NCBI RefSeq assembly: GCF_003173615.1 | Contig: NZ_QGNA01000003.1 | Coordinates: 434,001 to 498,000, forward strand | DNA length: 64,000 nt | From: Falsiroseomonas bella | Lineage (GTDB): Bacteria; Pseudomonadota; Alphaproteobacteria; Acetobacterales; Acetobacteraceae | Reading direction: 5' to 3' | Shown here: positions 23,783-43,476 of the stretch, in pieces | Numbering within the stretch: position 1 is the stretch's first letter | Layout: each line of letters opens with the position of its first letter | The notes under the pieces: model-generated | What the model was told of the DNA's origin: nothing | The model's input: the letters and a program-made list of their open reading frames with translations, nothing else | The model's database searches: none | Translations under genes and position numbers: made by a program

Positions 23783-24991
23783 ATGCCCGGACCGCTTTCG
23801 CATATCCGCGTGCTGGACCTCGGCCGCATCATGGCCGCGCCCTGGGCGACGCAGATCCTGGCCGATCTCGGCGCGGACGTGATCAAGATCGAGCGGCCGG
23901 GCGCGGGCGACGACACGCGCGCCTGGGGCCCGCCCTTCCTGAAGGCGGAGGACGGCACGCCGACGAAGGAAGCCGGATACTTTCTCGCGGTGAACCGCGG
24001 CAAGCGCAGCGTCACGCTCGACATCGCAAAGCCGGAGGGCCAGGCGATCGTGAAGCGTATCGCGGAAACCGCCGACGTGGTCGTGGAGAATTTCAAGGCT
24101 GGCGCGCTGGCGAAATACGGCTTGGATGCGGCCAGCCTGCGAGCGCAAAAACCGTCGCTGATCTACTGCTCCGTCACCGGCTTCGGCCAGGACGGGCCGC
24201 GGCGCGACCAGGCGGCCTATGACTTCATGATCCAGGCCATGGGCGGGCTGATGAGCGTGACCGGCGAACGCGACGGCGCGCCGCAGAAGGTCGGCGTGCC
24301 CATCGTGGACCTAATGACCGGCATGTACGCGACCGTCGCGATCCTCGCCGCGATCGCGAACCGCGAGCGCACCGGCCAGGGCGAGACGATCGACCTTGCC
24401 ATGCTCGACGTGCAGGCAGGCTTCCTGGCGAACCAGGCGATGAACTGGCTGGTCGGCGGCAAGGTGCCGCACCGCGCGGGCAACCGCCATCCGAACATCC
24501 AGCCGCAGGATGTGTTCCCGGCGAAGGACGGCCACATCGTGCTCGCGGTCGGCAATGACGGACAGTTCGCGAAGCTGTGCGAGGCGATCGGCCGACCGGA
24601 CTGGGCCGCGGATCCGCGCTTCATGAAGAACCAGGATCGCGTGCGGCACGAAGCGGCGCTGACGCCGCTGCTCGCGGACCGGTTCCGCGACTTCACCCGC
24701 GCGGAGCTGACCGCGCTGCTCGACGCGGCCGGCGTGCCATGCGGCCCGATCAACAGCGTGCCGGACGTCTTCGCCGATCCGCAGGTGCTGCATCGGCAGA
24801 TGCTGCGCGAACTGCCGCATCCGCTGGCCGGCCGCGTGCAGCAGGTGGTCAACCCGATCCGGCTGCAGGACGCGCCGCTGACCTTCGAGACGCCGCCGCC
24901 GACGCTCGGCCAGCACACGGCCGAGGTGCTGGGCGAACTCGGGATCAGCGATGCGGAGCGCGCGGCGCTCCGGGATTCAGGGGTGATCTGA
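23783..24991 (+). CDS. CaiB/BaiF family III CoA-transferase
   Basis: The product has 402 residues, opening HIRVLDLGRIMAAPWATQIL and GADVIKIERPGAGDDTR, with VNRGKRSVTLDIAKPEGQ and GFGQDGPRRDQAAYDFMIQA. This is the standard family III pattern. The catalytic aspartate is in GVPIVDLMTGMYATVA. Such enzymes move CoA from a donor such as succinyl-CoA to a free carboxylate in the cytoplasm. It is one of three CoA-transferases in this block, each in a different operon, and overlaps the next gene by one base (TGATG). The acceptor acid is unknown. Confidence 0.9.
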   Translation: MPGPLSHIRVLDLGRIMAAPWATQILADLGADVIKIERPGAGDDTRAWGPPFLKAEDGTPTKEAGYFLAVNRGKRSVTLDIAKPEGQAIVKRIAETADVVVENFKAGALAKYGLDAASLRAQKPSLIYCSVTGFGQDGPRRDQAAYDFMIQAMGGLMSVTGERDGAPQKVGVPIVDLMTGMYATVAILAAIANRERTGQGETIDLAMLDVQAGFLANQAMNWLVGGKVPHRAGNRHPNIQPQDVFPAKDGHIVLAVGNDGQFAKLCEAIGRPDWAADPRFMKNQDRVRHEAALTPLLADRFRDFTRAELTALLDAAGVPCGPINSVPDVFADPQVLHRQMLRELPHPLAGRVQQVVNPIRLQDAPLTFETPPPTLGQHTAEVLGELGISDAERAALRDSGVI

Positions 24992-25584
24992 TGGCGCCGC
25001 GCATCCCCCTGCCCGGTCGCGAGGATCTGGACGCGGCGCAGCGCGAGGTCTGGGACCGCGTCGTCTCGGGCCCGCGCGGCCAGGTGATCGGCCCGTTGCG
25101 CGCCGCGATCCACAACGCCGAGCTTGCCGGCCGCTGGTCCGCGCTGGGCGAGGCGCTGCGCTTCAACACCTCCCTGCCGAAGCACCTTTCCGAGCTTGCC
25201 ATCTGCGTCACCGGGCGTCGCTGGAGCAGCCAGGTGGAGTGGTTCGTCCATGCCCGCGTCGCCGCCGAGTCCGGCATCGCGCCCACGGTGCTGGATGCGA
25301 TCCGCGACGGCCGCGCGCCGGAGTTCAACGATGCGCAGGAGGGCGTGGTCTACGACTTCGCGCGCGAGCTGCAGGCCGATGGCCGCGTCTCGGACGCGAC
25401 CTACGCTGCCGCACGCGAGGCCTTCGGCGTGAAGGGCGTGGTCGAGCTGACGGCGCTGATCGGCTACTACACGATGGTCTCCATGACGCTGAACGCGCAT
25501 GGCATCCCGCTGCCGGATGGCGAGCCGGATCCGCTCACCGCGCCGTCGCGCGGCTTGTTCGACCTGCCGGAACGCGGGCGGTGA
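24991..25584 (+). CDS. Carboxymuconolactone decarboxylase-family protein
   Basis: The product has 197 residues of the all-helical CMD/AhpD fold (PF02627). Family features are LSELAICVTGRRWSSQVEWFVHARVA, with the EWxxH residues used by gamma-carboxymuconolactone decarboxylase, and ELTALIGYYTMVSMTLNA. The AhpD CxxC motif is absent, so a peroxidase role is unlikely. It is longer than PcaC (about 130 residues). It might decarboxylate or tautomerise a lactone made downstream of ring cleavage, but many family members have no known function. It lies between a CoA-transferase and a lactonase-like amidohydrolase, with overlapping ends on both sides. Confidence 0.82.
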   Translation: MAPRIPLPGREDLDAAQREVWDRVVSGPRGQVIGPLRAAIHNAELAGRWSALGEALRFNTSLPKHLSELAICVTGRRWSSQVEWFVHARVAAESGIAPTVLDAIRDGRAPEFNDAQEGVVYDFARELQADGRVSDATYAAAREAFGVKGVVELTALIGYYTMVSMTLNAHGIPLPDGEPDPLTAPSRGLFDLPERGR

Positions 25585-26435
25585 CGGAGCGCGTCGCGGC
25601 GCCCGACGTCTCGCGCACGCGGCATGCGGTGCCGGCGGGCGCCTGCGACTCGCACACCCATGTCTTCGACGCGCGCTTCCCGAACGGCCCCTCGCCCTAC
25701 GCGCTGCCGCTGGCATCGCTGGAGGTACACCAGGCGATGCGGGCGAGACTGGGCTGCGCGCGAGCCGTGCTGGTGCAGCCCGCGCCCTATGGCCGCGATC
25801 CCGCCTGCCTGCTGGATGCGCTCGCGCGCGACCCCTCGCTGCGCGGCGTGATGATCGCCGACGAGACGGTGACCGACGCGACGTTGGAAGCCTGGCACGC
25901 GGCCGGCGTGCGCGCGCTCCGCTTCACGGAGATGCGCGCGCCGGGCGGCAGCGGGCGCTATCCGGGCGCGATTGGCGTCAATGCACTGCAGCAACTCGCG
26001 CCACGGCTGCGCGCGCTTGGCTGGCAGGCGCATCTCTGGGCGGAAGCCTCGCAATGCGAGGCGTTGCTGCCGAGCCTCGCGAAGCTCGGCGTGCCGCTGG
26101 TGGTGGATCACCTCGCGATGCCGCGGGGCGCCGAGGACCCGGGCTTCGACAGCATCCTCGGCCATCTGCGCGATGGGCATCTCTGGGTGAAGCTCACACT
26201 CTGCCGCGTGCCGCGCGCGGGCGGGATCGAGACGCTGCGGCCGTTGCAGGACAGGCTGCTGGCCGCCAATCCGGATCGCCTGCTCTGGGGGTCGGACTGG
26301 CCGTATGTGCGCATGGCGCCCGCCCCGGATGCCGGCGCGATGCTCGACCTGTTCCTGGACTGGACGAAGGACGAGGACCTCGTACGGCGCATCTTGGTGG
26401 AAAACCCGACCCGGCTCTTCGGCTTCGACGACTGA
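25581..26435 (+). CDS. Amidohydrolase-2 family protein, LigI-like lactonase candidate
   Basis: The GTG at 25581 overlaps the previous stop (GTGA), giving 284 residues. It opens GACDSHTHVFDARFP (metal-binding HxH), then VVDHLAMPRG and LLWGSDWPYVRM with the final Asp, as in amidohydrolase-2 proteins such as 2-pyrone-4,6-dicarboxylate lactonase (LigI) and related sugar lactonases. LigI-type enzymes hydrolyse a pyrone or lactone ring. The neighbourhood (intradiol dioxygenase, CMD protein, RraA-family aldolase-like protein) makes a ring-cleavage lactone a reasonable substrate, but other lactones or amides are possible. A TctC gene follows 17 bp later with a GGGAGGAC site. Confidence 0.82.
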   Translation: MTERVAAPDVSRTRHAVPAGACDSHTHVFDARFPNGPSPYALPLASLEVHQAMRARLGCARAVLVQPAPYGRDPACLLDALARDPSLRGVMIADETVTDATLEAWHAAGVRALRFTEMRAPGGSGRYPGAIGVNALQQLAPRLRALGWQAHLWAEASQCEALLPSLAKLGVPLVVDHLAMPRGAEDPGFDSILGHLRDGHLWVKLTLCRVPRAGGIETLRPLQDRLLAANPDRLLWGSDWPYVRMAPAPDAGAMLDLFLDWTKDEDLVRRILVENPTRLFGFDD

Positions 26436-41691: not shown

Positions 41692-43476
41692 TCAGGCTGC
41701 TGCGGGGAGCGTGATGCGCCGCTGGTAGAGCCCCTCGGCGATCGGCCGATGGGCGATGGAGATGATCGCCGCATCCGGCAGGTGCTGAGCCAGCGCCGCG
41801 AGCAAGCGTGCCTCCTCCGCCGCGCCCAGCGCGCTTGTCGCGTCATGCATCATGATCCAGCCCGGCCGCTGCACCAGGCACCGCGCGAATTGCAGGCGCT
41901 GCTGTTCCTCGAGTCCCAGCTCCTCCTCCCAGTCCGCCACGGCGTCCAGCATCGGGACGAGATGCGCGACGCCGGTTGCGAGCATTGCCGCCTTCAGCGC
42001 CTCGTCGGCCACGTCGCCGACGGCCTGGGGTTCGAGCACGGCCTCGCGCAGCGGCGCGCGTGGCAGGAAGGGCCGCTCGCCCATGAAGAAGGGCGCGGAG
42101 TGCTCCGGCAGCTCGATGCGCCCGGCCCCCCAGCTGGACAGCCCCGCCACCGCGCGGAAAAGGGCGGCGGCGACCTGCGGCGGCGCTTCCAGCAGCACGC
42201 GCTCGCCCGGGCGGATCACCGTGTCGAAGCGGGACAGCAGCACCTCCCCGGCCGAGCCCAGCAGCGTCACCGCGCGGAAGGCGAGTTCCGGCCCCTTCTC
42301 CGCAGCCCGCAGGACGCGGCCCGGCCCGGCGGCCGAGGCCTCGCCCGGCAGGTCGCAGACCGCCTCGTGCAGCGCCAGCACGCGCTCGGCCGAAGCCTCC
42401 CACTGCGCGATGGTCGGGTAGTTGTCCGAGAGCCAGAGCAGCGCGCCCACGACCTGGCCGAAGGCGATGGTGAGCTGCATCAGGGTGCCGAGGCTGATCT
42501 CGCCCGCCAGGTAGCTTGGCGCGAGGATCAGCATGGGCAGGCCCGCGGTCAGCAGGCCGAACCCGGAAGAGAGGAAAGACAGATTGCGGAACGAGCCGGT
42601 CTGGACGTTCCAGCTGGCCTGCACGCGCGCAAAGGCCCCGGCGAGGCGCCGGCGCTCGCCCGGCTCCGCACCGGTCAGCGCGATCACCGGCGAGTGCGAA
42701 AGCGCGGCGAGCAGGCTCGCACGGAAATCGGCCTCGGCCGCCTGGCGGCGATCCGTCGCGCGCACCAGCGGGCGGCCGACAAAGATCGCCAGGGCGGCGC
42801 CCAGGAACGCATAGACCAGCGCGATCCAGACCATGTAGCCCGGTATCGCGACCTCGACGCGGCCGATGGCCAGCCGCGCCGTACCGGAGTGGATCCAGAG
42901 CATTCCGACGAAGGCGACGAACTGCAGCGTCGCGGCGAGTAGCGAGGCGAGGAAGTCCACCCCCATCTCGCAGACCACGCGCGCATCCTCCGCGATGCGG
43001 CCATCCTCGTTGTCGTGGCTGCCTTCCATGTTGCGCAGCCGGTAATGGCGCCCGGCATCCATCCAGGCGCCGGTGAGCATCAGCGTGAGATGGCGCCGTA
43101 GCGCAATGACCAGGCGGCGCTTGGCGACGAGCGCGGCCGTGACAACCGCCATCCAGCCCAGGACGATGGCGAGGAAGATCCACGCCTGGCGCAACAGCTC
43201 CGGCGCCGAGCGTCGCTCCAGCGCGTCGAAGAAATCGGCGTTCCAGGTGGTGATTCGCAGGTTGACCAGAAGCTGCCCGACGACGGTCAGGACCACGGCG
43301 CCGACCAGGCCGAGGAAGGCCCAGCGCCCGGCGCCGCGCGCCGCCCCGGCGAGCAGCCGCAGCATGCGCATCGCCGGCGCGCCGGGATGCGGCCGGGCGA
43401 GATAGCGCGCGCGGAGCGCCGCATGCGCCCCGATGCGCTCCTGCAGGGCGGACGGCGCATCGGGGACGAGCGTCAT
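41692..43476 (-). CDS. SbmA/YddA-type ABC transporter protein with degenerate (probably ATPase-dead) nucleotide-binding domain
   Basis: From ATG 43476 the product has 594 residues; an upstream ATG at 43551 would add a basic, non-conserved 25 residues. Residues about 40-345 are the ABC_membrane_2/SbmA-BacA-like transmembrane part (ITTWNADFFDALERRS is characteristic, then five or six helices). Residues about 400-594 align along their length with the family's ATPase domain, but its motifs are lost. Walker A is EAPPQVAAALF (Lys position is Ala436), the Q-loop Gln is Glu467, the signature LSxGE is LGLEE, and Walker B Asp-Glu is His544-Asp545 (MMHDATSAL). Only the H-switch H576 (IAHRP) and the TSAL D-loop remain. 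The long open frame argues for selection. Substrate unknown. Confidence 0.82.
   Translation of the reverse strand: MTLVPDAPSALQERIGAHAALRARYLARPHPGAPAMRMLRLLAGAARGAGRWAFLGLVGAVVLTVVGQLLVNLRITTWNADFFDALERRSAPELLRQAWIFLAIVLGWMAVVTAALVAKRRLVIALRRHLTLMLTGAWMDAGRHYRLRNMEGSHDNEDGRIAEDARVVCEMGVDFLASLLAATLQFVAFVGMLWIHSGTARLAIGRVEVAIPGYMVWIALVYAFLGAALAIFVGRPLVRATDRRQAAEADFRASLLAALSHSPVIALTGAEPGERRRLAGAFARVQASWNVQTGSFRNLSFLSSGFGLLTAGLPMLILAPSYLAGEISLGTLMQLTIAFGQVVGALLWLSDNYPTIAQWEASAERVLALHEAVCDLPGEASAAGPGRVLRAAEKGPELAFRAVTLLGSAGEVLLSRFDTVIRPGERVLLEAPPQVAAALFRAVAGLSSWGAGRIELPEHSAPFFMGERPFLPRAPLREAVLEPQAVGDVADEALKAAMLATGVAHLVPMLDAVADWEEELGLEEQQRLQFARCLVQRPGWIMMHDATSALGAAEEARLLAALAQHLPDAAIISIAHRPIAEGLYQRRITLPAAA

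Follow-up and report, generated by a model that had tools for sequence, protein, structure and literature searches.

This study concerns a window of 64,000 nucleotides of Falsiroseomonas bella DNA, in which a minus-strand open reading frame from 43476 to 41692 (594 codons plus a stop) encodes a protein of 594 amino acids, namely, a half-transporter of the YddA/Rv1819c/ABCD type (Table 1). The gene stands by itself, flanked by tRNA-Arg/leuB on one side and on the other by a convergent enoyl-CoA hydratase gene. The G+C content by codon position is 0.76/0.50/0.91 for the whole gene, resembling that of the adjacent leuB, and 0.80/0.50/0.90 for the part encoding the ATPase domain, a pattern that indicates a real gene in the minus-strand frame, its ATPase part included. 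A plus-strand frame over 41692-43476 is ruled out by internal stops.

Table 1. Coordinates (window positions) and basis of the features of the transporter gene and its protein.
Feature	Position	Strand	Basis
Gene, half-transporter of the ABC type, ATPase domain catalytically dead (594 aa)	41692..43476	-	Open frame; Pfam ABC_membrane_2; same-family relatives 57% identical; codon-position G+C
Transmembrane domain, residues 36-372	42361..43371	-	ABC_membrane_2 at 55-290; SbmA_BacA at 51-364; AlphaFold2 helices
Degenerate nucleotide-binding-type domain (NBD), residues 395-594	41695..42294	-	Aligns with the NBDs of Rv1819c and ABCD1/3/4; pLDDT mostly 80-97; top fold match Rv1819c
Lost Walker A, EAPPQVAAALF (430-440), Lys missing, shorter by one residue than in intact relatives	42157..42189	-	Lys (K436) in 100% of the intact and 0% of the degenerate comparison set; common deletion
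Lost Q-loop Gln, FMGERPF (464-470), Q to E467	42067..42087	-	Q467 in 100% of intact, 10% of degenerate
Lost signature, LGLEE (520-524) for LSGGE	41905..41919	-	G523 in 100% of intact, 6% of degenerate
Lost Walker B, MMHD (542-545), D544 to H, E545 to D; context MMHDATSAL (542-550)	41842..41853	-	D544 in 100% of intact, 0% of degenerate; E545 in 100% of intact, 19% of degenerate
H-loop His576, kept	41749..41751	-	Invariant in the window's subclade
G159, loop before TM3	43000..43002	-	Q in 95% of intact relatives
E170 in TM3	42967..42969	-	All sampled degenerate members; 32% of intact relatives
S178 in TM3	42943..42945	-	G in 95% of intact relatives
Q292 in TM5	42601..42603	-	Aliphatic in intact relatives

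The protein matches Pfam ABC_membrane_2 (1.5e-27, 97 bits against a cut-off of 24.4) and, within its first 370 residues, SbmA_BacA (6e-22). The Rv1819c structure 6tqe aligns with residues 100-590 (E 1.9e-46), and ABCD proteins also match over most of the length. YddA, BclA, and Rv1819c share the domain order, with an NBD fold fused C-terminally to the membrane domain, and Rv1819c is the best solved relative by both sequence and fold. However, the catalytic motifs are intact in these proteins, and BclA requires ATP hydrolysis (PMC12003926), whereas in the window protein all of them but the H-loop are lost. A sequence-only reading of this gene had reported the losses of Walker A, Q-loop, signature, and Walker B, which were confirmed when the residues were re-read in the minus-strand frame. 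Its wording that all main motifs were destroyed holds for those four but overlooks His576 and the QQR that follows the signature, both of which are kept. The alignment that it proposed along the length of the domain was borne out, and in the Pfam and 6tqe matches homology extends over the whole protein; the ATPase domain, though, is of the YddA/BclA/Rv1819c/ABCD kind, SbmA having none.

A degenerate subfamily with a single origin

Within the genus, identity to the next best matches is about 40%, and the ATPase motifs of most of these are perfect. Wider searches yielded five close relatives, all without the same motifs: three from the same family (56-57% identity) and two from Hyphomicrobiales (49-50%), of which one is from Phreatobacter. 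A second, larger set at about 40% identity, from the same family and six further families of the class, lacks these motifs as well. In a family search, roughly 32 of 398 genomes scored at least 690 bits with the degenerate profile, and those that were read were all degenerate. One protein at 653 bits (G173, L209) is degenerate yet keeps the Walker B Asp (LLDNATSAL), and is perhaps an early-branching or slower-decaying form. No strong match outside the class was found among 399 sampled genomes of the phylum, and a plasmid search returned distant Azospirillum homologues only.

The losses are common to 45 distinct relatives: the Walker A Lys is present in none of the 31 degenerate members counted residue by residue, and the one-residue P-loop deletion is shared by the degenerate members read. 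Because the same losses recur in many independent genomes, chance is excluded, and so is a sequencing error whose correction would restore the motifs. In a tree built from membrane-domain columns only, and thus not influenced by the ATPase motifs, all 31 sampled degenerate members form one clade (bootstrap 99, SH-aLRT 94), whose members represent the window's family and seven or more other families of the class; the window's own subclade of six is supported at 100/100. At the level of sequence, the degenerate motifs are thus conserved as one clade and the subfamily has a single origin. A tree of the NBD without its motif columns had too few columns to resolve one origin.

No earlier description of this subfamily was found in the mainly open-access literature searched, and the word 'degenerate' is absent from the two most relevant papers on the distribution and origin of SbmA, BacA, and BclA (PMC13316013, PMC12003926). 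Within that literature, a group of ABC-type transporters with a dead ATPase domain had gone unnoticed. Homology-based annotation would label the subfamily ATP-binding, which would be wrong for all of it.

Two variations within the subfamily were also seen. In one subgroup, about 35 further residues follow position 590 as a conserved C-terminal extension (consensus LLxExxARRxAA...RPLxxxDxLRxG) that the window protein lacks. In G011, the full-length degenerate gene is followed closely downstream by a free-standing second copy of a degenerate NBD (L002:491-1279, a frame of 263 codons).

The retained domain and possible functions

The dead domain is predicted to be well folded. The AlphaFold2 model has a mean pLDDT of 86 over the whole protein, with Rv1819c as its best fold match, and structural residues (G410, G424, G445, G450, G452, P457, W516, R527, A531, R532, P538, and R586) stay at 90-100% in the degenerate set. 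The dN/dS of the NBD between close pairs is mostly 0.2-0.4 (NG86), which indicates purifying selection; pairs that include the window gene give 0.37-0.45, values that are probably too high, with synonymous sites near saturation. The NBD is the faster-evolving domain in degenerate proteins and the slower one in intact relatives. Together, dN/dS and this reversal of domain rates indicate that constraint was changed and relaxed but did not vanish. The suggestion of a changed role in the sequence-only reading is supported by a degenerate clade kept under selection, while its description of the domain as vestigial is doubtful given the confidently predicted fold and the kept structural residues.

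The explanation that we consider rather probable is ATP-independent transport by a homodimer in which the old motor serves as a scaffold. The window gene would then belong to a single-origin subfamily of YddA-type half-transporters that abandoned ATP hydrolysis. Its product most likely forms homodimers, in which the membrane domains would use an ion gradient or the gradient of the substrate itself, instead of ATP, to power alternating-access transport, and the former ATPase domain would persist in the cytoplasm as a folded scaffold that serves dimerisation or gating. Two precedents exist: SbmA is proton-driven (PMC13316013), and LmrA-MD, the engineered form of LmrA that lacks the NBD, illustrates that an ABC membrane domain is able to act as an ion-coupled secondary transporter (PMC2704374). 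LmrA-MD is an artificial truncation from another ABC family, whereas the loss described here arose naturally and left the NBD in place. Against independence from ATP, the coupling-loop regions and the NBD fold are retained, both of which are lost in SbmA-type secondary transporters, so that some NBD-driven movement is possible. A proton-driven carrier, as proposed in the sequence-only reading, is also possible, although the complete proton ladder of SbmA is absent.

Partly inactive ATPase domains are known from ABC proteins that work as channels or regulators, such as CFTR and SUR. This precedent, and the position of the gene alone in the window outside any transport operon, would fit a membrane sensor, receptor, channel, or scaffold that does not actively move a substrate. 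This is considered unlikely, since the protein retains cavity-lining Glu residues that also occur in YddA and SbmA and since a whole subgroup is linked to a glycosidase gene, which fits substrate uptake. In that subgroup, distinct from the window's own, a gene for a glycoside hydrolase of family 1 (GH1) adjoins the degenerate gene in 12 of 12 loci read (L160, L161, L162, L163, L164, L165, L166, L167, L171, L176, L205, and L206, in genomes G399, G349, G357, G487, G521, G685, G472, G345, G568, G057, G755, and G743). A GH1 gene at this similarity was found in none of 14 genomes tested from other subgroups, and none lies near the closest intact sisters. The linkage suggests a glycoside-type substrate for the GH1-linked subgroup and says nothing direct about the window protein, in whose subclade no conserved neighbour was found beyond two genomes of one genus. 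The orientation of the GH1 gene relative to the transporter gene varies, and four of these loci also encode a conserved protein of about 350 residues with no Pfam match (L160:6014-7060, L163:7803-8849, L164:1925-2962, and L165:11013-12053).

In ABC transporters, each ATP site combines the Walker A and B motifs of one subunit with the signature of its partner subunit (PMC7756269). As the window protein has lost the residues for its contributions to both composite sites, a normal site would be missing from a homodimer and from a mixed dimer alike. Heterodimeric ABC exporters often have degenerate sites (PMC7756269), and three intact paralogues are encoded elsewhere in the window genome; the protein might therefore pair with an intact YddA-type paralogue, as the half of a heterodimer that does not hydrolyse ATP. 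As in TM287/288, TAP, and the ABCC type, the degenerate motifs are conserved among orthologues. However, known degenerate subunits leave one consensus site and work with a partner, whereas the window protein has lost Walker A, Walker B, and signature together, and an intact relative is missing from several genomes. Eight genomes (G188, which belongs to the window's subclade, and G057, G061, G137, G172, G345, G472, and G568) encode the degenerate protein as their sole ABC_membrane_2 member, and both such proteins of G138 are degenerate. This survey covered the ABC_membrane_2 family; the eight genomes are 97-100% complete and mostly drafts, so that a missed paralogue is possible in any one but unlikely in all eight. 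An intact relative of the ABC_membrane_2 family thus cannot be an obligate partner, which contradicts the proposal in the sequence-only reading of a non-hydrolysing subunit insofar as it requires an intact paralogue. Moreover, in the regions read no intact copy adjoins a degenerate gene, and the lone tandem pair consists of two full-length degenerate transporter genes (G685, L165; C45:21122-22861 and 24121-25806), which possibly form a heterodimer of two dead subunits. Altogether, pairing with an intact paralogue is improbable.

It is likewise improbable that the domain binds nucleotide or another ligand in an unusual manner for gating. Both His544 and the H-loop His are invariant in the window's subclade and the fold is kept in the model, which would suit such a role, but the P-loop has lost its Lys and Gly and is shortened by one residue.

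The sequence-only reading also saw in this protein an intermediate evolutionary form, that is, a transition from ATP-driven YddA to proton-driven SbmA. SbmA is thought to be YddA-like in ancestry, and its proton ladder comprises E193, E203, E269, E276, E287, and E378 (PMC13316013). The membrane domain of the window protein is homologous to that of E. coli SbmA (25% identity), and in neither protein would ATP use be expected. Of the ladder, E193 and E276 have glutamate equivalents (E163 and E248), as does E287 in one alignment (E271, an uncertain assignment), whereas V173, T241, and Q358 stand at the positions of E203, E269, and E378. The equivalents of E203 and E269 are absent from the entire clade, that of E378 from the window protein as well; E170 lies about one helical turn from the E203 position. 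Since the retained cavity-lining Glu residues also occur in ATP-driven YddA-type proteins, they speak little for a transition. SbmA and BacA (SLiPT) have the full ladder and no NBD, whereas the window protein has a partial ladder and a 200-residue domain predicted to be folded, and no room for the N-terminal TM0 of SbmA (the alignment starts at SbmA residue 82 and residue 51 of the window protein). In membrane-domain trees the degenerate clade is nested among intact YddA-type proteins and separate from SbmA/BacA. An AU test did not reject its union with a single SbmA sequence (p=0.295), but with eight SbmA/BacA sequences the union was marginally rejected (p=0.045). A transitional form is accordingly very improbable, and on these comparisons the clade is best seen as a second, independent departure from ATP.

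The lost motifs, and an NBD that, unlike in intact relatives, evolves more rapidly than the membrane domain, might point to a young pseudogene. This is refuted by the conserved clade: the same losses occur in open frames in dozens of genomes, dN/dS is well below 1, and the third-position G+C in the NBD is 0.90.

Remodelling of the membrane domain and the apparent order of events

The degenerate clade has common changes in the membrane domain at positions 159, 178, 240, and 292, which YddA, BclA, and Rv1819c lack. Three of them, G/A159, S/T178, and Q292, served as markers and occur in 45 of 45 degenerate proteins and in 2 of 93 intact ones; as the markers were picked by comparing these same sets, the perfect split should be taken as a description. 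More telling are the two intact sisters, L110 and L111 (genomes G584 and G661), which carry the markers together with perfect ATPase motifs. L110 is sister to the degenerate clade in the membrane-domain tree (100/97), and both proteins would represent a living sister lineage from before the loss. Because an intact sister lineage carries the markers, remodelling of the membrane domain apparently preceded the loss of the ATPase. The simplest reading of these sequences would thus place the changes in the membrane domain before the loss of the ATPase; a less simple alternative would be that recombination in the sister lineage exchanged a dead NBD for an intact one.

If the membrane domain indeed came first, the subfamily may record a stepwise natural conversion from ATP-driven to ATP-independent transport that was independent of SbmA, with a single loss of the catalytic sites, after which the inert domain continued to serve as a working part across the subfamily. 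This wider scenario is put forward tentatively, with its chances close to even. SbmA recently drew attention to the interconversion of primary (ATP-driven) and secondary (gradient-driven) transporters (PMC13316013). If the scenario is true, the clade would add a second natural case, independent of SbmA, in which the dead motor remains attached. The living sister lineage makes the order of events open to test by swaps of residues or domains.

Four Rhizobium proteins of about 390 aa (L093, L094, L095, and L096) have a YddA-type membrane domain and no NBD in frame. The one of the four included in the tree groups with intact Microvirga-type proteins, and represents a further, separate loss or split of the NBD.
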